Assembly (NCBI GenBank): GCA_017549505.1
Contig: JAFYUS010000054.1
Location: forward strand, 1-64,000
Length of the DNA: 64,000 nucleotides
Source: Bacteroidales bacterium
GTDB lineage: Bacteria; Bacteroidota; Bacteroidia; Bacteroidales; UBA932
Reading direction: 5' to 3'
Positions 654 to 53,535 of the stretch are shown here, piece by piece; the stretch's first letter is position 1, and every line of letters starts with the position of its first letter. The position numbers and the translations under genes are program-made. The notes below the pieces were generated by a model that worked only from the letters and a program-made list of their open reading frames with translations, was not told the origin of the DNA and did no database searches.

Positions 654-2846
654 TTACTGCGCACTGAGGTACAGCACGCGGCTAGACCAGTCGTCCTGCT
701 TGTGGTAATCCACGATGTGCTTGAGAGGGATTTCAAGGCCGTTCTCCATCAGGAACTTTCCGCTGAAGGACATGCCTTCGTATTTCAAAGGAACATTGTC
801 TATCCTGTTGAGCTCGGTCACCTTGTACATCTTATCCGGATCAAGACCAGCCATCCTCACTCTTGGGAGATGGTCATCGTAGAAGGTCTCGGTCTTCCAC
901 CAGTAGAAGACAGCCTGATTCTTTTCAGGAGCAACGTACATCAGGGACGCCATATTGTGTCCGTCGTATGGAGAGACAAGACGATAGATGTCACCGAACT
1001 GGACTACAGGACGGATCTCCTTGTACTCCGCGATTGCCTTACGGCAGAGATCGCGCTCCTCCTGAGTCATGTTGCGAGGCTGGATCTCCATTCCGAGACG
1101 TCCGCTCATGGCAACGTCGATGCGGTATTTGAGGGAGGTCGTACGGAATACGGTGTGGTTAGGGGTTGCGCTGATATGCGAGGCCATCGCTATCGCAGGG
1201 AAGAAGTATGATGTTCCCCACTGCATATGGATACGCTGGAGGGCATCTGTATTGTCGCTCACCCAGAATTCGTCGAACCAAGGGAGGACACCCCAGTTGG
1301 CACGTCCGCCGCCGGATGCGCAGGCCTGGATGGTCACATCCGGATACTTCGCACGGATACGGTCACATACCTTTGCAAAGCCGCGGTGGTACTCGATGTA
1401 CAGATGGCTCTGCTTGTTCTTCGGAAGATACTGCGATCCGTGGTTCGATATAGGCATGTTTGCATCCCACTTGATATAGTCGATCTTAGGATTCTCAGTC
1501 ATGAGATCATCCACAATCTTGAAGACGAAGTCCTGGACTTCAGGATTGCCGAGATCAAGAACGAGCTGTGTACCGCCACGGCCAAGGACAGGCTCGCGCT
1601 CCGGTGCCTTGATGATCCATTCAGGATGTTCTTCATAAAGTTCGCTGACGCTGTTGGTCATCTCCGGCTCGATCCAGATGCCGAATCTGATTCCATGCTT
1701 GTCAGCTTGCTCGACAAGCCAGCCGATTCCGTTAGGAAGCTTGTTCCTGTCTACTTTCCAGTCTCCGAGAGAGCTGTTGTCGGTAAGGCGCGGATACTTC
1801 TCTCCGAACCATCCGTCGTCCATCACGAAAAGCTCTCCGCCCATATAGGCGATGTCAGCCATCATCTGGTCCATGCCCGGCTCATTGATGTCGAAATAGA
1901 CACCCTCCCAGCTGTTGAGCAGGATCTTCCTTTCCTTGTCTCCATGAGCCAGCTTGTACTTGCGGCCCCATCTGTGGAAGTTGCGGCTGGCTCCGCTGAG
2001 TCCTTCATCGGAGTAAGTGAATGCAAGCTCAGGGGTCTTGAAGACTTCCTTCGACTCAAGTATGTACGCAGAATTGTCAGGGTTGATTCCGGCAAAGAAT
2101 TCATGATAGTCGGTGTCACGGGTATCGATACGGAGCTCATAGTTTCCGCTATAGCAGAGAGCCGCTCCGATCACTCGTCCGGCGTTCTCCTGAGGTTTGC
2201 CGTCGAGAGAGAACATCACCTCAGAATGGTCAGTATGTGCATTACGTGCACCATCCTTGTTCTTTATCACCATCATTCCACGCTCCAGCTGCTCCTGGGT
2301 AAGACGGCCTTCAGCTGCCCATGTACCATGGAGATGGCTTATCCATACATCACCGACGCGGACAGGGAGATGACCTGAGTCAAAACGTGTCAGAGTGACC
2401 GCCTTCTTGCCGAGGTTCTCGATCTCGGTCCATGTCTCGATCATATCCACATCCTGATATGCCTTGTAGCACACGGTCACATAGAACGGATACACGGTAT
2501 CCTTGAGTCTGATGCGTGTGATCTGTGCACCGTCTTCATGTGACTGGGAAACGGTGTCGACCTTCAGAACGGTCGACATGTTTCCGTCGGCGTGTGTCAC
2601 GCCGATGGAAGCTTCGCCTGCGCAGTGGAATCCATATGCAGGGTATGCATCCACCCATGCTGCACCTGCCGCTTCAAGTCCTGCAACATCCGCATCCGAG
2701 AGACGGGCACCATAATAAAGAACCTTAAGTTCGCTTCCGGCGTCTGCCTTCAACACCATCTCTGTTTCAGGGGTAGTGACACGCACATGAGCCATTGCCG
2801 CAAGAGATGCGCAAAGCAAAGCGCTGATCAATATCATTCTTTTCAT
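654..2846 (-). CDS. GH36 alpha-galactosidase, secreted
   Basis: A 730-residue protein with an N-terminal signal peptide (MKRMILISALLCASLAAMAH) and no lipobox Cys, so probably periplasmic. Residues ~20-290 form the GH36 N-terminal beta-supersandwich, ~300-620 the TIM barrel and the rest the C-terminal sheet. The barrel shows VMDDGWFG, the nucleophile motif YIKWDAN (Asp461) and the acid/base motif WVSDNTDA (Asp531), all typical of GH36. It should remove alpha-1,6-galactosyl branches from galactomannan oligosaccharides. It lies 12 nt after the GH26-GH5 gene in the same operon, which supports a galacto(gluco)mannan substrate. Confidence 0.93.
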   Translation of the reverse strand: MKRMILISALLCASLAAMAHVRVTTPETEMVLKADAGSELKVLYYGARLSDADVAGLEAAGAAWVDAYPAYGFHCAGEASIGVTHADGNMSTVLKVDTVSQSHEDGAQITRIRLKDTVYPFYVTVCYKAYQDVDMIETWTEIENLGKKAVTLTRFDSGHLPVRVGDVWISHLHGTWAAEGRLTQEQLERGMMVIKNKDGARNAHTDHSEVMFSLDGKPQENAGRVIGAALCYSGNYELRIDTRDTDYHEFFAGINPDNSAYILESKEVFKTPELAFTYSDEGLSGASRNFHRWGRKYKLAHGDKERKILLNSWEGVYFDINEPGMDQMMADIAYMGGELFVMDDGWFGEKYPRLTDNSSLGDWKVDRNKLPNGIGWLVEQADKHGIRFGIWIEPEMTNSVSELYEEHPEWIIKAPEREPVLGRGGTQLVLDLGNPEVQDFVFKIVDDLMTENPKIDYIKWDANMPISNHGSQYLPKNKQSHLYIEYHRGFAKVCDRIRAKYPDVTIQACASGGGRANWGVLPWFDEFWVSDNTDALQRIHMQWGTSYFFPAIAMASHISATPNHTVFRTTSLKYRIDVAMSGRLGMEIQPRNMTQEERDLCRKAIAEYKEIRPVVQFGDIYRLVSPYDGHNMASLMYVAPEKNQAVFYWWKTETFYDDHLPRVRMAGLDPDKMYKVTELNRIDNVPLKYEGMSFSGKFLMENGLEIPLKHIVDYHKQDDWSSRVLYLSAQ

Positions 2847-2858
2847 ACCCTTTCTTCT

Positions 2859-4871
2859 TTAGAGCTGTTCCTTCACATATTTTCCCCAAGGGCTGAGATC
2901 AGCTTCCGCCCATGGTCCTTCAGACGGAGCCGAAGGATAGAGCATAGAGCAGGTCTCCTTCTTGTCTGAGATCGACCAGAAAAGGTAGCTGATGTCGTTT
3001 GCATCCATCCACTCTACCCACTCCTCGACAGATTTCTCGTCGATCGGGCCCTGACCGTCTGCATTCATTCCGCCGCACTCAGTGACAAAGAGTGCAAGTC
3101 CCTTGCTCATCGCATAGTCACCCTTTTCGCGGAGCCACTCCTTATGGGTTCCTGCATAGAAATGGAGGGTATACATGAGGTTGTCATATCCGACGATAGG
3201 GTCATTGGCAGCATCGTCCACATTCTGCGACCATCTTGGAGTGCCGACAACAATGACTGCATCCTTCTCGATGGCGCGGATCGCCTTGATGACTGCCTCG
3301 GAATACTCCTTGATCTCTGCCCATGTATAGTCGATCTGCTTCTCGTGATCCTTGTATGACGGCTCGTTCCAGATCTCATATATCACGTTAGGAACACCCT
3401 TATACTTTTCAGCCATATATGTAAAGAATTCTACGGCAGCATCGGTGTGAAGACCATGAGCATGCCAGTCCACAAGAACATATACTCCGTTCTCGATGGC
3501 TGCATCTACAATCTCACAGGCCGATTTCTTACCGAATTCCGGATCCTTGAGATAACACTGCACCTGACATTCGTCGTTGTCGATCTCGACTCCGACAGCA
3601 GCGCGTACTATTTCCGCATCCCACTCGTCCACGACATGCTTCACAGCACCTGCGTTATAGAAACGAGGCCAGAGCACATTCCATCCGAAGCTGACACCCT
3701 TGAGTTCCACAGTCTCTCCGGACTCGTTCTTGAGAGCCGTACCCTCTACATGAAGGGCCTGCACCTTGGGAGAAAGCGTCACGATATCATCGAGAGCTAC
3801 GAAATCGTTGAAGTCGTCAGCTGACTGCTGACCAGGGAAAGGAGCATAATAGTGGTGCTGCATGTCATCGTCACATGCATTTCTCCATACAAGCACATAT
3901 GATACAGGATAATCCTTCATCACAGGATAGAGGACCTCTGTCCACCACTTAGGATCCTTCAAGGTCTCATGGCCTGTCTCGGTTATGGCAAGGAGCTTTC
4001 CATGTTCCTTTGCAAAGGCAGAAGATATTTCAAGGGCATTCTTCATCGAAGCCACATACATATCCTTTGAGCGTGTATGGTAGCAATCGAAGCCCACCAT
4101 ATCGATTATCTCGTCTCCTGGATATCTTTCGCCGAATACATCAATTGAGGAAAGTTCGCCGGCACCCGGAGAATATGACCACACAAGGTGGTTCATACCG
4201 CGTTCACCGACCATATAATCGTATGTCATCTGCCAGAGTGCCTTGTACTGCTCTGTGGTACAGAGCTTCTGTCCCCACCAGAACCAGCTTCCTGTGTGCT
4301 CATGCCATGGCCTGAAGATCAGAGGAATCTGCTCTCCGTCAGCAGTCTTGATAGAAGACATGAAGTCAGCAGCCTTTGACAGCCAGCTCATGAAATACTC
4401 ATGCTTCTCGCCACCAGGAAGAATCGATGCCACCACCTGGTCTGAAGATACATCCCACGCGTCACCGCCGGTAAGAGGATTGCGAGGGTGCCATGAGAAT
4501 GTCACGATACCGCCGCGCTCGTGGTGAGCCACTGCGGCGGCGCGCATATGGTCGAACAGGTTCTTGTCAAGGTTTGCAGGCCAGTCTACCTCGATACCGC
4601 CAAGGTCCATACCGTAGACTGCAGGATATCTTCCGGATACGGAATATACATCTGACTGCACATACTCTGTAGCATCGTCAGCAAGCTTCCACGAATGGCC
4701 ATACATGTATGTATCCTGATGGCCTAGCATTATCTTTCCTTCCTCGATCATACCTGACAGACGGGCCATAAGGTCTTCTGCAGGAGTATTTTCAGGATTC
4801 TTGGAAGCACAGCATGAAGCCAGCGCAATGGCGCTTGCAATGATAAGAATATTCTTCAGTATTGATTTCAT
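2859..4871 (-). CDS. Surface lipoprotein with GH26 and GH5 domains (bifunctional mannanase)
   Basis: A 670-residue lipoprotein: MKSILKNILIIASAIALASC has a lipobox ending at Cys20. Residues ~30-350 are GH26, with RPWHEH (acid/base Glu181) and ITETGHE (nucleophile Glu288). Residues ~355-670 are GH5 of the cellulase/mannanase type, with YEIWNEPS (Glu493) and LFVTECGG (Glu588). The frame is open upstream to 4916, but ATG 4869-4871 gives the proper signal peptide and a 10-nt gap to the upstream gene, so I chose it. The GH26 half is clearly paralogous to the cytoplasmic GH26 at 22075-23127. Two endo/exo activities on one chain suggest cooperation on the same glucomannan chain (inference). Confidence 0.9.
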   Translation of the reverse strand: MKSILKNILIIASAIALASCCASKNPENTPAEDLMARLSGMIEEGKIMLGHQDTYMYGHSWKLADDATEYVQSDVYSVSGRYPAVYGMDLGGIEVDWPANLDKNLFDHMRAAAVAHHERGGIVTFSWHPRNPLTGGDAWDVSSDQVVASILPGGEKHEYFMSWLSKAADFMSSIKTADGEQIPLIFRPWHEHTGSWFWWGQKLCTTEQYKALWQMTYDYMVGERGMNHLVWSYSPGAGELSSIDVFGERYPGDEIIDMVGFDCYHTRSKDMYVASMKNALEISSAFAKEHGKLLAITETGHETLKDPKWWTEVLYPVMKDYPVSYVLVWRNACDDDMQHHYYAPFPGQQSADDFNDFVALDDIVTLSPKVQALHVEGTALKNESGETVELKGVSFGWNVLWPRFYNAGAVKHVVDEWDAEIVRAAVGVEIDNDECQVQCYLKDPEFGKKSACEIVDAAIENGVYVLVDWHAHGLHTDAAVEFFTYMAEKYKGVPNVIYEIWNEPSYKDHEKQIDYTWAEIKEYSEAVIKAIRAIEKDAVIVVGTPRWSQNVDDAANDPIVGYDNLMYTLHFYAGTHKEWLREKGDYAMSKGLALFVTECGGMNADGQGPIDEKSVEEWVEWMDANDISYLFWSISDKKETCSMLYPSAPSEGPWAEADLSPWGKYVKEQL

Positions 4872-11733: not shown

Positions 11734-13583
11734 TAGAAGTTGTAAACATACTCTGCGCGAACATCTACCGGCTGTGCAGGCTCAAGAAGATGAGGGTTGA
11801 ATGTCACATCGGCTGCCGGAAGAGGAAGAGTGAAGATACCCTCGTTTACATGAGTTGAACGACCTGGAAGATCGTCAGCGTATCTTACATCATTGTTGAG
11901 CAGGCTCCATTCAGCCTTGGTAGCATCGAATGCAGTAAGGTCTGCCGGTGCATCCTCAAGAGTACCGCCGCATCCTGTGTACCAGTAGTTCTTGCAAGCC
12001 TCGTTGTAGCTGTAGAGCTGGTTCATGAGCTGGCCTGAAAGATCTGCCATTGCAGCAGCCTTGTCATAATAAGCAAGACGCACATAGTCATACCAACGGT
12101 CTCCTTCTCCTGCAAGCTCAAGACGACGCTCCTTCCAGATATCATCGAATGTCACATCGGTAAGCGCACCGTCAGTCTCATCGATCTTTTCGTTGATTGC
12201 ACGTGCACGTACTGCGTTTACATACTGAAGAGCCTTTGCCTTTGTGCCGCCGCCGAGAAGATTCGCCTCTGCACAGATGAGATATACATCTGAAAGACGG
12301 AGAAGATGGGTAGGAAGCTGGTTGCTCATTCTGCCTGCAGCAACACCGATGGCAGCCTCATGGTCAGCACCGTCACCGAAGAGATGCTTCACGTTCTGGC
12401 TTCCGCAAGGACCTTCCCACTGACCAGGAGAGCCATAGCTTGCATACTCCTCATCACCGCTGAAAAGGAAGTAAAGATAGTTGAAGCCTTTGTTTCCCCA
12501 AGGGTCAGCCTTTGTTGTCCAGAAGTATTCGTAGATATCACCGGCCATCATAAGGGTAGCCTTACGACGTGTATCCTTCTCCTTTGCCTCTCCACGCTCA
12601 GCCGGAGACTGCAATGGGTCTACGCCGAATGCAAGAGCGAGGTCATAAGAAGGACCGCCCCAGCCGCCCCAGAGGTCACCGAATTCGCTGAATCCCTCGA
12701 AGCAGAGGTCGCACTGCAGAGAGTTCTGGGCTGTCCAGTTGCCTGACTTCGCTTCCCACTGCCAAGATATGAGGCTCTCACCTGTAGCGTTGTATACGCT
12801 TGGAGCAATACGGAATACGTCAGAATACTTAGGAGTAAGAGTACGTCCCGAATTGAGGATCACGTCTTCTGAAAGATCGGCTGCCTTCTTGAGGTCATCG
12901 TTGTTCAATGATCCGGCAAGACCGGCTCTTGTAAGATAAACCTTTGAAAGAAGAGCCTCAGCAGCATAGTAGTCAATACGTCCGTTCCAACCTGAAGTCT
13001 GCTTAGGAAGAAGTTCCATAGCCTTCTCAAGGGTCATGATGATGTATTCGTATACGCTTGCTCTGTCTGCCTTGTAAAGGTCGTTGTATGTACCTTCAGT
13101 AAGGATTGCGTTATTGTCGTGTACGATAGGAACTTCACCGAAAGTCCTTACCATATAGAAATAAGCCATTGCCTTCCATGTGAGGGCCTCGCCGATAGCC
13201 TTGTTCTTTGCAGCCTGTGAAGGGCCTTCAGCATTCACGATATTGAAGATTACGGTGTTTGCATGCGCATTTACCGACCACAATGAGTATGACATGTTGA
13301 CAAGGTCAGTATCGGAACCGTTTGTCGAGAAATCAAGATATGGGCTGTCCCAGTACATGTTTCCGGCCATGACCTCTCCGATCTTGATATAAGGACGGAT
13401 GAAATCATACCAAGGGGAATTGTACAGGTAATTGACACCCTGCTCCACCTGCTCGTCCGTCTGGTAGAAATTCGAGACATTGTAGCTGTCTTCGGTAGGA
13501 CGGTTCAGGAAGTCCTGGCAAGAAGCGAAGCTGATAGCTAGAACTCCTGCCATAACACCTTTGAATATATTACGTAGTTTCAT
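11733..13583 (-). CDS. susD-like: SusD-like glycan-binding lipoprotein
   Basis: A 616-residue lipoprotein; signal MKLRNIFKGVMAGVLAISFASC (Cys22) followed by the SusD-typical QDFLNRPTEDSY. The fold is recognisable from the N-terminal RagB/SusD segment (FYQTDEQVEQGVNYLYN), TPR-like helices with AMAYFYMVRTFGEVPIV and AEALLSKVYLTRAG, and the C-terminal YLICAEANLLGG / VNAVRARA / WKERRLELAGEGDRWYDYVR block. In the family it caps the SusC barrel and loads glycan. It lies 19 nt after SusC, forming the pair that defines the locus as a PUL. Confidence 0.96.
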   Translation of the reverse strand: MKLRNIFKGVMAGVLAISFASCQDFLNRPTEDSYNVSNFYQTDEQVEQGVNYLYNSPWYDFIRPYIKIGEVMAGNMYWDSPYLDFSTNGSDTDLVNMSYSLWSVNAHANTVIFNIVNAEGPSQAAKNKAIGEALTWKAMAYFYMVRTFGEVPIVHDNNAILTEGTYNDLYKADRASVYEYIIMTLEKAMELLPKQTSGWNGRIDYYAAEALLSKVYLTRAGLAGSLNNDDLKKAADLSEDVILNSGRTLTPKYSDVFRIAPSVYNATGESLISWQWEAKSGNWTAQNSLQCDLCFEGFSEFGDLWGGWGGPSYDLALAFGVDPLQSPAERGEAKEKDTRRKATLMMAGDIYEYFWTTKADPWGNKGFNYLYFLFSGDEEYASYGSPGQWEGPCGSQNVKHLFGDGADHEAAIGVAAGRMSNQLPTHLLRLSDVYLICAEANLLGGGTKAKALQYVNAVRARAINEKIDETDGALTDVTFDDIWKERRLELAGEGDRWYDYVRLAYYDKAAAMADLSGQLMNQLYSYNEACKNYWYTGCGGTLEDAPADLTAFDATKAEWSLLNNDVRYADDLPGRSTHVNEGIFTLPLPAADVTFNPHLLEPAQPVDVRAEYVYNF

Positions 13584-13602: not shown

Positions 13603-16600
13603 TTAGAATGTAAGGCTTACACCGAATGAATATGTGGTAGGAGATGGGTAACGACCGTTATCCACTCCGTAAGCATATCCTGATGAGTCCTGTGTCGAAG
13701 CACCTACCTCAGGGTCATATCCTGAATACTTTGTGAAAGTATAGAGGTTCTGGATGTTGCAGTAAACGCGGATGTTTTCGAAATTGATCTTCTGCATCCA
13801 CTTCTTAGGGAATGTATATCCGAGGGTCACGTTCTTGATACGGAGATATGATCCGTCCTCAATGTAGCGTGTGCTGAGACGGTCATTGTCATTAGGGTCG
13901 TTCAGAGTAGGACGAGGAGTCATCGTACCGCTGTTTGCAACCTTCACGTTAGTTATGTCGTCGAACCATGAACCGCTCTCATAAACCTTGTCTGGATCGA
14001 TAGGAACAAGCTGTGCCTTATCCTTGATGGCTGATGCATTCTGGTTTACCCATACTGACTTCATTGAAGCAAGACCGCCTGAAGGACCGTTCATAAGGCT
14101 GTAGTTGAGAACCTTGTTGCCATACGATCCGTTGAGGAAGATATTGAGGTCAAATCCCTTGTAGCGGAATGTATTGTTCCAACCGAATGTAAAGACAGGA
14201 AGCGGGCTTCCGATGTCTGTCATATCATTTTCATCAATGACGCCATCCTCGTTGATATCCTTGTACTTGAGGTCACCGACCCATACTGTATTCGAACGGT
14301 TGTAAACTCCGTTTGAAGGGTGCTTTGCTGTCTTTGGAGAATTCTCGATATCCTCAAGAGATTCATATACGCCTTCTACCACATAACCATAGAAGTTGTA
14401 GAGAGGTTTTCCGATCTCAGAAAGACATACGACATCATCCCACTGTCCGTAACCGATGATGCTGGCAGCAGATGTTCCGCTGAGAGCAACAAGTTTGTTG
14501 CGGTTGAATGAAATCTGAGCATTGCTGTCCCACTGGAACTCGCCTACGAAAGGATGAACATCGAGAGTGAACTCAAGACCCTTGTTCTCGATGCTTCCGT
14601 AGTTACCCTTAGGAGCTGCAAGAACTGATGATCCGTTACCCTGGGTTCCCATATATGAAGGAAGCTGCATGGACATAAGCATGTCCTTTGAAACCTTCTG
14701 ATAGAGATCTACTGTAACATTGAGTCTGTCCTGGAAGAATCCGAGGTCGAGTCCGAAGTTCAACTGCTCCTGTGACTCCCATCTGATGGCTGTGTTAGGA
14801 ATGTTTGCAGGACGATAACCGGCACCGAGAGCCGAGTCCATAGAGCTGATTGCCGAGCCCCATGCATATCCTCCGATGTTTGAGTTACCGGTCTGTCCCC
14901 AACCTAAACGGACCTTACCGTTGCTGAACCAGTCAAGACTTTCCATCCACTTCTCGTTGGTAAAACGCCATGAACCTGCTACCGAATGGAAGCCTGCCCA
15001 ACGGTTATCAGGACCGAAGTTGGAAGAACCGTCGTAACGATAAGTATAAGTCAGATAATATCTGTTGTCATAATTGTAAGTCTCACGGGTGAAGAATGAA
15101 GCCATTGCCGAGCTTCCGAATCCTGAACCGATTGTAGGAGTACCTGCTCCAAGGTATGGGTTATGAACTTCGTCAGAAGGAAGCTTGGTATTGTAGATAC
15201 TCTGATATTCCCAGCTTGACTCCCAAAGTTCCTGTCCTGCCATCACAGAGAAGTTGTGCTTTCCGATTGTGTTGGCGTATGTGATATAGTTCTTGAGCTG
15301 CCAGAACATGCTAGTATTGTTCTGCCATCTAGCCTCGTTTGTACCACGCTGCCAGTTACCGAGGTTAACCATTGGAGTATAAGTCTCCGACTTGTTGAAA
15401 CCGAGGTCAAAGCCTACCTCTGTATGCCATGTGAGGTTCTTGACAGGAGTAATGTCAGCAAAGATGTTTCCGTTGAGTTTCTGACGCTTAAGGATGATGT
15501 CATCCATCATTGCCATAGCGATAGGATTGACACGGCTGCCGAGACCTTCGCGGACTTCAGAAGTAAAGTTTCCATCAACGTCATAGATAGGAATGTCTGG
15601 AAGACTGGTCAACGAAGTGAACACGATACCTTCCTGGCTGTCTGCAAGCTTAAGGTCATCGACAGTATTTGAGTAAGTTGCGTTCACACCGAGCTTGAAC
15701 CACTTCTTGAGCTGTGCATCGAGATTTGTACGTACGCTGAAACGTGAGAAGTTCGATCCGATGATGGTACCTTCCTGATCCATGAAGGATCCTGACACAT
15801 AGTACTGTACCTTGTCAGTACCGCCGGAAGCTGAAACCTGATGCTGGTGCTGGAGAGCTGTCTGGAAAATTGCATCCTGCCAGTTTGTACCTACACCAAG
15901 GACTGAAGGATCAGAGTAATATGCATTGGCTTCATATCTTTCGCCGATTCTGAGAAGCTCGTTATAGTACTCTGCATATTCACGAAGATTCATCATATCC
16001 ATACGACGAGTCTGCTGTGATACTGCAAACATACCGTCATAAGTGAACTTCGCCTCGCCTGCCTTACCACGCTTTGTAGTGATGAGAACGACACCGTTCG
16101 CACCCTGTGCACCGTAGATCGCTGTTGCAGAAGCATCCTTGAGGATCTCCATGCTTACGATATCTGCAGGGTTGATTGTCGAGAGAGGTGAAATTGTAGA
16201 TACAGATCCGTTTCCGAGAGCATCACCAAGACCGAAGTCACGGCCTGAAGATCCGCCACCCTGAACGATAACACCGTCGATGACGTAGAGAGGCTCTGCG
16301 TTAGCGTTGATGGTAGCCTGTCCGCGGACACGGATCGATGATGACGAACCAGGTGCTCCTGAAGTCTGGACTGCTGTCACACCGGCAGCACGACCCTGGA
16401 GAGTCTGGTCAAGAGATGAAACGATGGAACCTTTGATGGACTCCTCGCTCATCGAAACTGATGATCCGGAAAGGTCACTTCTCTTCATCGTACCGTAACC
16501 TACGACTACGACTTCGTCCAGAAGCTGCTTGTCTTCCTGCAGAGTTGCATTGTAGACATTCTGACTTCCCACGAGAAGCTCAACATCCTTGTAACCGATG

Positions 16601-22074: not shown

Positions 22075-23127
22075 TTATTTAATGAATAACATATTTTCAA
22101 TCGATGCAAATGCCTTGAAGTCCTCTACGGAATCATGGCCGGGATAAGGGGCGTAGAAATGGTGCTGCATGTTCTCGTCGCAGGCATTTCTCCATAGCAG
22201 GACGTATGATACCGGATAATCCTTTATGGCCGGATAAAGTACTTCCGTCCACCATCTTTCATATTTGACTCCTTCCCATCCGGCCTCGGTCACGGCTATC
22301 ATCAGCCCATGTTCCTTGGCAAATGCTGAAATCACATCAAGAGAATACTTCATCCTCCCGACATATACTTCATTTTCTGTAAACTGGTAGAAATCGACAC
22401 CTATCATATCAACGATCTCGTCGCCAGGATAACGTTCCTCCACGTCCAGAGGATCGCTTCCGCATGAATCCGGGGAATATGACCAAACCAGGTGGTCCAG
22501 TCCCCTCTCCTTGGTCATATAATCGTACGTCATGCTCCATAGAGCCTTGTACTGCTCTGTGGTACACCAGTCCTGACCCCACCAGAAGTAGTTCTTTGTA
22601 TGTTCATGCCATGGGCGGAAGATGACAGGTATCATCCTGCCGTCATCGGTCTTGAGGGATTCCAGATAATCAGCTGCCTTCCTGAGCCATCCCATGAACA
22701 TTTCATGATTGCTGCCGCCGGGAATTATCGAAGCGACCGCTTCGGTCGACGACGTGTCCCACGTGTCGCCTCCGGTCAGAGGATTGCGCGGGTGCCATGA
22801 AAAAGTAATGACTCCTCCCCTCTCATGATGAGCCTTCACTGACTCTCTCATCTGGTTGAAGTCATTCTTGTCGATATTTAAAGGGGAATCAAGTTCGATT
22901 CCTCCGAGGTCCAAACCATAAAGTGCAGGGTATACACCTGCAACATCCTCTATATCAGTCTTGTTGAAATCCGTTGCATCTGAAGCGATCTTCCAAGAAT
23001 GGCCATACAGAAAGCTATCCTGATGGCCGAACATTATCTTTCCGTCTTCAATCTGCTTTGAAAGACGGGACAAGAGGGCTTCTGCAGGAGTATTGACAGC
23101 TTTCATGGTTCTTGACAAATTCATCAT
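22075..23127 (-). CDS. Cytoplasmic GH26 mannanase (mannobiose-releasing type)
   Basis: A 350-residue protein with no signal peptide, unlike the other two GH26 proteins here. The motifs are [26 protein letters not shown] (acid/base Glu175), FWWGQDWC and AVTEAGWEG (nucleophile Glu281). It is close in sequence to the GH26 half of the 2859-4871 fusion. The gene order GH26-GH130 beside an epimerase matches known loci in which an intracellular GH26 releases mannobiose from manno-oligosaccharides. It is the first gene of the minus-strand locus. The ATG at 23104-23106 is an alternative start. Confidence 0.92.
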
Positions 23128-29158: not shown

Positions 29159-29522
29159 GATACAATACCTTTAAGTAAGTTAAACATCGGGGCTTTGCAA
29201 AAATAATAATTTCTATGGTACTATGGTTACCCCGGAATCCCAAATAACATTCCAATTCTTATCTGATCCATATGTGGTATTGATAAGGTTTACATTATAC
29301 TGGCATATTACCGCGTTAATGTATAATGTATTGTTTAAAAGTTCGTTGTAAATTTAATGTTAAGAAAGAAGTTAATATGTATTTTTGTATCTGAAATTTA
29401 TTTCACTTCGAATATATAACAAATTGAAAATCATTGGGTTACAAGAGTAAAATAAATTAAATTATTTCACGCTTGTAACCCAATGATAATCAAAGGACTA
29501 ATAATGCTTCCTGAAATATAAA
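29159..29522. other. AT-rich intergenic stretch with a long inverted repeat
   Basis: No coding frame is convincing in these 364 bases. The stretch holds a possible -7 box (29198-29205, minus) for the lipoprotein pair and the inverted repeat at 29430-29487, listed separately. The rest is AT-rich sequence without recognisable elements. Confidence 0.6.
29430..29487. repeat. Inverted repeat with 16-bp perfect arms
   Basis: ATCATTGGGTTACAAG (29430-29445) and CTTGTAACCCAATGAT (29472-29487) enclose a 26-nt AT-rich spacer, itself partly self-complementary. It lies 35 nt beyond the stop of the TPR regulator and may form its transcript end or a protein-binding site. Confidence 0.7.
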
Positions 29523-40746: not shown

Positions 40747-40804
40747 AATAACTTACGACGTTTAGGGTCGGCGAATTTACTGACCCTAAATGTCGTAAGT
40801 TATT
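40747..40804. repeat. Long inverted repeat with 23-bp arms after the GH63-like gene
   Basis: Arms at 40747-40769 and 40782-40804 match over 23 bp with a single G-T type difference, enclosing a 12-nt loop. Inner part: CGACGTTTAGGGTC with GACCCTAAATGTCG. It lies 68 nt after the GH63-like stop. There is no T-run, so it is either a 3' stability hairpin or a mobile palindrome. Confidence 0.7.
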
Positions 40805-41391: not shown

Positions 41392-41500
41392 GCAAAATAA
41401 CCGGCAGGTATTGATGTAAGTGACATGCCACCCCCGGCTAGGGGGTGCCTGTCGAAAGACAGGCGGGGGTCACTGGAATCAAACCTGCCGGTTATTTTGC
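41392..41500. repeat. Structured repeat, CCACCCCCGGCTAGGGG family, copy 1
   Basis: Outer arms GCAAAATAACCGGCAGGT (41392-41409) and its exact complement (41483-41500) surround a core that starts ATTGATGTAAGTGACATG, continues CCACCCCCGGCTAGGGG and ends GCGGGGGTCACTGGAATCAA. A GAAA-capped hairpin (GCCTGTC/GACAGGC) sits in the middle. The core recurs at 50564-50717 with different outer arms. Here it separates convergent genes and could stop transcription both ways. Confidence 0.8.
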
Positions 41501-42275: not shown

Positions 42276-42388
42276 ACCTCCGTGACACGATTCGCCTTTT
42301 CTATGTTACGGAAGTGTCAAAAACAAATCATTTTGAGTCACTTTAGTGACCTCCGTGACATAGATTTTTGAATTTATGTCACGGAGGT
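42276..42388. repeat. Paired 40-bp palindromes with 73-bp period, locus 1
   Basis: Unit 1 (42276-42315) has arms ACCTCCGTGACA and TGTTACGGAAGT; unit 2 (42349-42388) has ACCTCCGTGACA and TGTCACGGAGGT, perfectly complementary over 14 bp. Each unit is 40 nt, the spacer is 33 nt, and the start-to-start period is 73 nt. Locus 2 (52115-52227) has the same numbers with related arms. It lies in the 357-bp intergenic region between the EF-G2-like gene and the flavodoxin-fold gene; nothing else is recognised there apart from their promoter and terminator. Confidence 0.8.
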
Positions 42389-50565: not shown

Positions 50566-50717
50566 AAAAAACAATGGGTATTAATGTAAGCGACATGCCA
50601 CCCCCGGCTAGGGGTCGCGAGCGGCAAGGCAAACAGTCCAGTGGACTTTTGCAGCGAGCAGCCTGCGGCAGCAGGTTTAGGGCGGGGGTCGCTGGAATTA
50701 AACCCATTGTTTTTTTT
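50564..50717 (+). repeat. Structured repeat, CCACCCCCGGCTAGGGG family, copy 2 (acts as terminator)
   Basis: Outer arms AAAAAAAACAATGGGT (50564-50579) and its exact complement ending in eight Ts (50702-50717) flank a core starting ATTAATGTAAGCGACATG, then CCACCCCCGGCTAGGGG, and ending GCGGGGGTCGCTGGAATTAA. Compared with copy 1 (41392-41500), the outer arms differ completely but stay self-complementary, and two inner pairs have changed on both sides (AGTGAC/GTCACT to AGCGAC/GTCGCT; TTGAT/ATCAA to TTAAT/ATTAA). The interior is longer and contains a small AGTCC/GGACT hairpin. Confidence 0.82.
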
Positions 50718-52114: not shown

Positions 52115-52227
52115 ACACCTGTGACAGTTTTCGGACTGGAAATGACACAGGTGTGGCTAAAAGAACCGTTTTTACATGGTTTCGGGAACAGCTGTGACAG
52201 TTCTGAACGTTTTTTTGACACAGGTGT
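52115..52227. repeat. Paired 40-bp palindromes with 73-bp period, locus 2
   Basis: Unit 1 (52115-52154) has arms ACACCTGTGACA and TGACACAGGTGT; unit 2 (52188-52227) has ACAGCTGTGACA and TGACACAGGTGT. Each is 40 nt long with a 33-nt spacer; the period is 73 nt, as at 42276-42388. Both units are preceded by TTTCGGGAA. It lies 18 nt after the MATE stop. Confidence 0.8.
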
Positions 52228-53112: not shown

Positions 53113-53188
53113 TCGTCCGGTCACGGGAGGGGCGAGCGGAGCATATACCTATGCTCCTGCGAAGCGAGCCACTTCTGTGACCGGACGA
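53113..53188. repeat. GGAGCATA repeat with locus-specific arms, copy A
   Basis: Outer arms TCGTCCGGTCAC (53113-53124) and GTGACCGGACGA (53177-53188) are exact complements. Inside, GGAGCATA (53138-53145) and TATGCTCC (53150-53157) form a second stem with a TACC loop, bordered by GGCGAGC and GCGAAGCGAGCC. The inner core is shared with 53461-53535, while the outer arms are unrelated. Confidence 0.75.
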
Positions 53189-53391
53189 CAATGCACCAGA
53201 TCAATCAAAGGCCCTTATGAGTAAAGAGTTTGCGGGGACCGGCGAAGAATCATGAAAACTAATTTATTAACAATCAACCACTTACACCAATACATTATCG
53301 CCAGTCTCTGTAAATGTCTTCATCGCATCGTCTAAGAACTGGGACTATAACTGTCGTGTCAAACAAAATATTGTCTCTCAATAATTTACAG

Positions 53392-53535
53392 AAAATGCGT
53401 GCCGCCAATGGGGAGAAAGCATTTTGCATATAACACTAATAATCAACATGTTACAGAACACACCAGACCCCGTCGGTGGCGGAGCGGAGCATATTCCTAT
53501 GCTCCTGCGGAGCGAGCCACTGACGGGGTCTGATG
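53392..53535. repeat. Composite repeat: GCGTGC palindrome plus GGAGCATA element, copy B
   Basis: First part: AAAATGCGTGCC ... AAAGCATTTT (53392-53425), related to the palindrome at 31298-31328. Second part: arms at 53461-53480 and 53516-53535 (CAGACCCCGTC with GACGGGGTCTG) around GGAGCATATTCCTATGCTCC. The order and spacing match the decayed copy at 31298-31408. It lies 36 nt beyond the galM stop and may form the end of the arabinose transcript. Confidence 0.7.

Follow-up and report, generated by a model that had tools for sequence, protein, structure and literature searches.

The two palindrome pairs in the window

The window, i.e. the whole stretch of 64,000 nucleotides that was analysed, comprises positions 1-64,000 of contig JAFYUS010000054.1 (assembly GCA_017549505.1, Bacteroidales bacterium) and carries two pairs of palindromes, both of which are intergenic. 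Locus 1 is located between two genes of the - strand, with the 3' end of an elongation factor G gene (fusA) on one side and the start of an FMN-reductase gene on the other. Locus 2 begins 18 nt past the stop codon of a MatE gene. The unit found at both loci is a 40-nt palindrome made of two 12-nt arms and a 16-nt loop, and the units are paired with a period of 73 (Table 1). The original prediction had placed two 40/33/40 palindrome pairs at 42276-42388 and 52115-52227, and these coordinates were confirmed exactly. Its description of the arms as palindromic holds overall, but the first unit of locus 1 is imperfect.

Table 1. Units and spacers of the two palindrome doublets (positions in the window)
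Feature	Position	Strand	Remarks
Locus 1, unit U1 (REP-like palindrome)	42276-42315	.	10/12 arm pairs, imperfect
Locus 1, spacer	42316-42348	.	33 nt
Locus 1, unit U2 (palindrome)	42349-42388	.	arms fully paired; period 73 to U1
Locus 2, unit U1 (palindrome)	52115-52154	.	ACACCT-GTGACA subfamily
Locus 2, spacer	52155-52187	.	33 nt
Locus 2, unit U2 (palindrome)	52188-52227	.	period 73 to U1

The doublets are stable as folded RNA, having z values of -8.7 and -3.2 on the + strand and of -7.3 and -2.2 on the other strand. The predicted minimum-energy structure on both strands of both loci is a long hairpin, the outer arms being mutually complementary. Stable folding, together with the short distance between the MatE stop codon and locus 2, might be expected of transcription terminators or of mRNA 3'-end hairpins that lack mobility, and U2 of locus 1 does match a simple, rather crude terminator pattern. 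However, this match is found on the + strand only, while both neighboring genes are on the - strand, and locus 2 does not match the pattern. An Rfam search of the window returned no family at the gathering threshold, and a terminator function would explain neither the exact period nor the dispersal of the copies described below. Terminators are therefore a very improbable explanation. A tRNA and tmRNA search of the window found none.

The window contains other repeats. A short dispersed repeat at 41407-41479 and 50577-50614, which is also present on contig C64 (L053, 4924-4989 and 14544-14597), shows no likeness to the palindromes. The window also has short repeats at 53134-53173, 53482-53521 and 53378-53460, which it shares with contigs C51 and C64. 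Two long stretches, 29424-29493 (70 bp) and 40747-40804 (58 bp), are imperfectly self-complementary (about 86%). The segments 3808-4804 and 22115-23108, each about 1 kb long, are 69% identical and probably represent paralogous genes.

Copies dispersed in the same genome

When one mismatch is allowed, the pattern GTGACA-N16-TGWYAC has 10 matches in the window, compared to a mean of 1.33 and a maximum of 6 in shuffled sequences. The exact pattern has 50 matches in the whole genome (29 forward and 21 reverse), and the reversed-pattern control has none. Because palindromes score on both strands, the 50 matches reduce to 33 distinct places. In five of these (C9, C22, C26:4288, C31 and C55:29713) the outer arms are not palindromic, and the matches seem to be due to chance. 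Eleven more doublets of this genome, having a period of 73 or 74, were aligned; they are located on contigs C4, C11, C26 (two), C32 (two), C34, C39, C46, C51 and C64. Single units (L030, L042) and copies cut at contig ends are also present.

The segment 42267-42322, which covers part of locus 1, recurs on contig C55 in a copy with 89% identity. The canonical form of a REP, a short-loop imperfect palindrome preceded by a 5' GTAG-type tetranucleotide, is not seen here, as the loops are 16 nt long. An alignment of 15 doublets, inspected by eye, has no conserved tag of this type within 5 nt outside either end.

Period, arms and loops in other genomes

A genome search with free spacing had been set beforehand as the test that could refute the original prediction. 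Contigs were scanned for GTGACA doublets with the period free between 68 and 78, and 44 stretches were returned. Thirty-five of them come from 12 Bacteroidales MAGs and contain a total of 38 doublets, with a period of 73 in 33 cases and of 72 in five. The remaining nine stretches (eight non-Bacteroidales records and one Tannerella) have scattered periods of 68, 69, 69, 72, 75, 76, 77, 78 and 78 and were left out of the count of 38. The flanks in SIG150, SIG159 and RGIG8943 are 100% identical to those in G209, G025 and G031, and these three of the 12 MAGs are not additional genomes. The original prediction withstood this form of its test, the spacing of exactly 73 being the dominant one, but periods of 72 and 74 also occur. 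No GTGACA copy one helical turn off was found in 61 genomes when periods of 58-88 were allowed (three genomes had matches), suggesting that any phase rule acts between RAYT lineages and not between copies.

The core GTGACA/TGTCAC is constant because the search requires it. The search pattern left the six outer positions of each arm free, and across 49 distinct doublets 4.65 and 4.33 of these 6 positions are paired. These outer 6-mers vary by genome, with six perfectly paired forms: ACCTCC, ACACCT, ACCGGC, ACCACC, ACGACC and AGGACC. Pairing of the outer arms across the units (4.67 and 4.55 of 6) is about equal to that within the units, which leaves both two hairpins and one long hairpin compatible with the data. 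Loop 1 agrees with the complement of loop 2 at 6.61 of 16 positions, which is barely over the largest value among 500 shuffles (6.59).

The loops and spacers had been thought not to be conserved. This is correct for loci 1 and 2, which belong to different subfamilies, but within a subfamily both are conserved. The locus 2 doublet and a doublet situated beside a RAYT gene in another species (RGIG5202, L107) are identical at 96 of 113 positions, and the C55 copy of locus 1 behaves similarly.

A search of 60 relatives for the fusA/FMN-reductase region gave no syntenic empty site. G007 is the only listed genome in which matches to both genes lie on one contig, where their relative orientation is opposite. 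Comparison of the flanks of 52 doublets showed the matching sites to be occupied, with no clean insertion. In one complex case the second doublet of L108 is absent in L134, but within a larger difference.

RAYT genes flanked by doublets

The same genome has a divergent RAYT (Y1/HUH transposase) gene of 306 aa at C34:12820-13737 on the - strand. It was found by a profile built from the Y1 genes of relatives, PF01797 having missed it. A doublet at 13753-13865 is located 15 nt upstream of the start codon, and a decayed doublet with a period of 73 (12692-12804) starts 12 nt past the stop codon. PF01797 at E 0.001 detects four genes in this genome, but none of them adjoins a GTGACA palindrome, and they were rejected as the cognate RAYT. 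The RAYT of SIG150 (L142) is preceded by a doublet at a distance of 17 nt, and in RGIG5202 the doublet of the locus 2 subfamily mentioned above lies 8 nt beyond the 3' end of a RAYT. The 5' and 3' flanks share at least ten 9-mers in 89 of 125 RAYT-clade loci, compared to 37 of 400 mismatched flank pairs.

As it has a doublet on each side, the C34 RAYT is most likely the cognate enzyme of locus 1. Locus 2 is a member of a sister subfamily, the RAYT of which is seen in a related species (RGIG5202). The ACACCTGTG arm, which corresponds to the ACACCT arms of locus 2, is absent from the 12 Y1 loci of the own genome that were inspected, which cover 7 genes (the genome is 77.8% complete). The enzyme of locus 2 might therefore lie in the missing part of the assembly, might have been lost, or might be the C34 enzyme.

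All 27 aligned RAYT proteins have the motif H50-x-H52 and residue Y107, and we infer that Y107 is the catalytic tyrosine. The middle residue of the HUH motif is T, T and A in three proteins and is not bulky hydrophobic. At E up to 1, the NCBIfam family REP_Tyr_transpos (NF047646) matches 17 of the 27 members (best 1.7e-10) and Pfam Y1_Tnp (PF01797) matches 10 of them (best 3.2e-5). Searched singly, the RAYT protein P0001 matches no Pfam family even at E 10, and its match to REP_Tyr_transpos (E 0.0085, 16 bits) is below the cut-off of 80 bits. A sequence-profile search did not lead to any solved RAYT structure. The RAYTs of this clade are common: at E 0.001 a match, in many cases a weak one, is present in 113 of the 151 genomes of the genus, and at E 1e-50 the figure is 124/400. 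In several genomes the RAYT is found next to one and the same upstream neighborhood while the palindromes, where readable, differ (L143, L210, L212, L142/L215), an arrangement which fits vertical descent with co-evolving repeats.

Two further explanations can be weighed against these data. The high symmetry of the arms, the fixed core and spacing, and the position of locus 1 upstream of the FMN-reductase gene are all compatible with an operator-like element, in which a host DNA-binding protein would occupy two dimer sites and the RAYT genes would be merely among its targets. Nevertheless, many RAYT genes are flanked by repeats on both sides, and these repeats differ in sequence from one RAYT to another. 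Moreover, the loops and spacers are conserved among some dispersed copies and between species, as in copied DNA, and locus 2 is placed after the MatE gene. An operator is hence an improbable interpretation. The doublets might also be MITEs of a DDE-type insertion sequence that lie near RAYTs by coincidence, as each is a 113-bp element with complementary outer arms that can form a long hairpin. However, the Y1 genes are directly flanked by doublets, and this is the least probable of the explanations considered.

The dispersal of the copies, their fixed geometry and the RAYT flanked by doublets together indicate that the pairs are REPINs of a Bacteroidales RAYT branch. Thus, both pairs are very probably non-autonomous doublets of REP-like palindromes, which would have been spread between genes by a RAYT acting in trans. 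The earlier suggestion of a mobile or protein-binding element, as opposed to an ordinary terminator, is supported by the dispersed copies and by the cognate RAYT with its doublet on each side.

Several other Y1 genes have repeats of their own. The own genome has a second RAYT of the same clade, which is 50% identical and is one of the four PF01797 genes (L031, C26:3288-7500). It has different palindromes on both sides (core GAGTCGCA, period ~71), and its 3' flank also contains a 15-bp tandem repeat. A further Y1 gene of this genome (L209, C35:800-3450) has its own doublet with a period of 73 and CCGTTGAGC arms. Genome G031 has a second doublet family (L062, 1284-1400) with the core GGTGCTACA, and the arms of this family are found in the 3' flank of a RAYT of G031 (L149) with a period of 74, so that one genome probably has at least two RAYT/REPIN pairs. 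The Y1 gene of L097 (G062) lies between two tandem arrays with a period of 73 (452-1290 and 2416-3195; 11.5 and 10.7 copies). The repeats flanking the Y1 genes of L082, L087, L095 and L098 have a period of 52 (in L095 also 104), or about five helical turns.

Spacing of the doublets beside RAYT genes of the genus

The doublets beside RAYT genes were identified by a script that requires four matching 12-nt arms. Forty-five of the first 66 clade loci have a doublet: 19 are spaced at 71-74 and 23 at 82-84, the others being at 104, 126 and 128. The distance between these two modes is close to one helical turn. When all P0001-clade loci are considered, 83 of 129 have doublets, with 46 at 71-74, 32 at 82-84 and none between; the remaining doublets are at 104 (two) and at 126, 128 and 132 (one each). 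Another 34 loci, which are the PF01797 matches of the genus plus two more Y1 genes of the own genome, have eight doublets at 52, 52, 53, 63, 73, 73, 83 and 134 (Rayleigh test at 10.45 bp: R 0.915, p 0.0012).

A grid of 10.45 bp was noted before more loci were fetched, at a time when the 66 clade loci and the 34 loci of other Y1 genes were already known. The grid values were named, with no tolerance stated. The 63 new clade loci gave 38 doublets, 27 of them at 71-74, nine at 82-83, one at 104 and one at 132, and the grid noted in advance fits 37 of the 38.

The pooled set contains 94 doublets from 188 loci (the clade and other Y1 loci of the genus and order, the NF047646 loci being outside the pool). 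It was thinned to one value per RAYT cluster, with 45, 24 or 14 clusters. A free scan between 6 and 16 bp gave best periods of 10.55, 10.45 and 10.30 bp (R 0.81, 0.87 and 0.86), respectively. A maximum as high as the observed one arose in 0, 0 and 2 of 20,000 draws of jittered data, although these probabilities are optimistic because the thinned clusters are still related. The spacings 126, 128, 129, 132 and 134 fit the grid poorly as a set. With a looser 8-mer measure two loci fall between the modes (76 and 78), and there are scattered short periods of 36-57, which are partly tandem repeats.

In a tree of 66 RAYT proteins the 73 and 83 states require at least five changes (56 labelled rows, looser 8-mer labels included). 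Fifteen of the 66 tree labels came from the 8-mer measure, and with palindromic labels alone (42 rows) there are at least three switches. Within the unit, the arms are offset by 38-42 in 16 of 23 loci of the 83 type, but by 28 or less in 17 of 19 loci of the 73 type, showing that the extra length sits in the loop. Loci L151, L178 and L179 have an offset of only 18-26 and a long gap, and their total is still 82, suggesting that the distance between the centers is the quantity that is kept.

The grid is absent in the canonical RAYTs outside the genus. Of 60 NF047646 loci of the order and phylum, 57 were scannable and gave 16 doublets. One was a run of N and was discarded. The spacings of the remaining 15 are spread between 49 and 133 (R 0.386 at 10.45, p 0.11), so the script itself does not create the grid. 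Among 720 control pieces a doublet was called in only five, and one of these calls was a run of N. The proposal that both palindromes face the same side of the helix has thus found comparative support within the genus, but fails in the canonical RAYTs of other families.

Comparison with known REP systems

The original prediction knew of no named family with this layout. This is incorrect, since REPINs, according to the available text of PMC3116915, are named REP doublets that have a preferred spacing and are thought to be moved by a RAYT in trans. In Pseudomonas fluorescens SBW25 (Bertels and Rainey 2011, PMC3116915) REPINs with preferred spacing (GI: 71 bp) occur together with a RAYT. They resemble the doublets described here in being dispersed and near a specific RAYT, in their ability to form a long hairpin, and in having compensatory changes; the SBW25 doublets are extragenic, as are both copies in the window. 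However, the SBW25 doublet consists of two inverted REPs, whereas the units described here are near-perfect palindromes in their own right, with loops of 16 nt. The two common SBW25 spacings, which are counted from the first residue of one conserved 16-mer to that of the other, are 71 and 110 bp and do not both equal a whole number of turns, and the words helix, helical and periodic do not appear in the available text of that paper.

The TnpAY1 subclass 2.6, which is RAYT group 5 of the Bacteroidetes, is similar in that "atypical secondary structures" flank the RAYT and have copies elsewhere in the genome (PMC6006769, as far as its text was available). Its members have a median of 179 aa, the motif YIH[QN]NP and a median HuH-Y distance of 82. 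In contrast, the RAYTs described here are about 305 aa long, with SYxLRNxLHHG as the Y motif and a distance of 55 residues between H52 and Y107. Membership in subclass 2.6 was rejected, as neither the Y motif nor the length matches. None of the Y motifs tabulated in the available part of PMC6006769 fits SYxLRNxLHHG, by eye.

The GTAG- and CGTC-tagged REPs and REPtrons (PMC3733652, in the sections at hand) form dimers mostly 20-100 bp apart and have RAYT genes flanked by repeats, as is the case here. Unlike in those families, no GTAG or CGTC tag was identified and the period is strict. The E. coli TnpAREP/REP system, as presented in the accessible portion of PMC8266576, likewise has an HUH/Y1 enzyme with cognate palindromes that are recognized as folded single strands, but in E. 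coli the REP stem is bulged and a GTAG tag is present, unlike in the palindromes described here. The word "spacing" is absent from that portion. The same source describes RAYTs as domesticated single-strand transposases and calls the spread of REPs poorly understood.

Within the literature covered (many subscription papers and all preprints were outside its scope), no published REPINs in Bacteroidetes and no helical spacing were found beyond the short accounts in the available text of PMC6006769 and PMC3733652. The REPIN/RAYT kind of system is known, and the long-RAYT Bacteroidales variant with a quantitative spacing rule appears new within that coverage.

A possible mechanism and its implications

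With the dispersal, the geometry, the paired variation of the outer arms, the RAYT linkage and the quantised spacing at the level of the genus established, a mechanism can be outlined. The RAYT would recognize the GTGACA core in the arms of the folded palindromes. By analogy with TnpAREP and the IS200/IS605 enzymes, as described in the available parts of PMC8266576 and PMC6006769, it would bind the folded palindromes and cut beside them. Movement would involve the doublet as a unit. Both palindromes may be engaged together in this RAYT branch, and a centre-to-centre distance of whole turns would be favored because the DNA between the palindromes is duplex at that moment. An oligomer of the RAYT bridging two extruded hairpins is one possible form of such a complex. 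We propose tentatively, as a reading somewhat short of an even chance, that the RAYT branch of the genus recognizes its REPIN as two palindromes on one face of the duplex, and that the spacing evolves mainly by whole turns (5, 6, 7, 8 and 10).

The palindromes of this RAYT branch are unusually regular, and their spacings jump by about one helical turn. The phase model predicts that activity would fall when half a turn is added and would return with a full turn, and natural spacing variants of 52, 63, 73, 83 and 104 are available together with their enzymes. If the model is true, there would be a duplex-phased step in a class of transposases thought to act on single strands.
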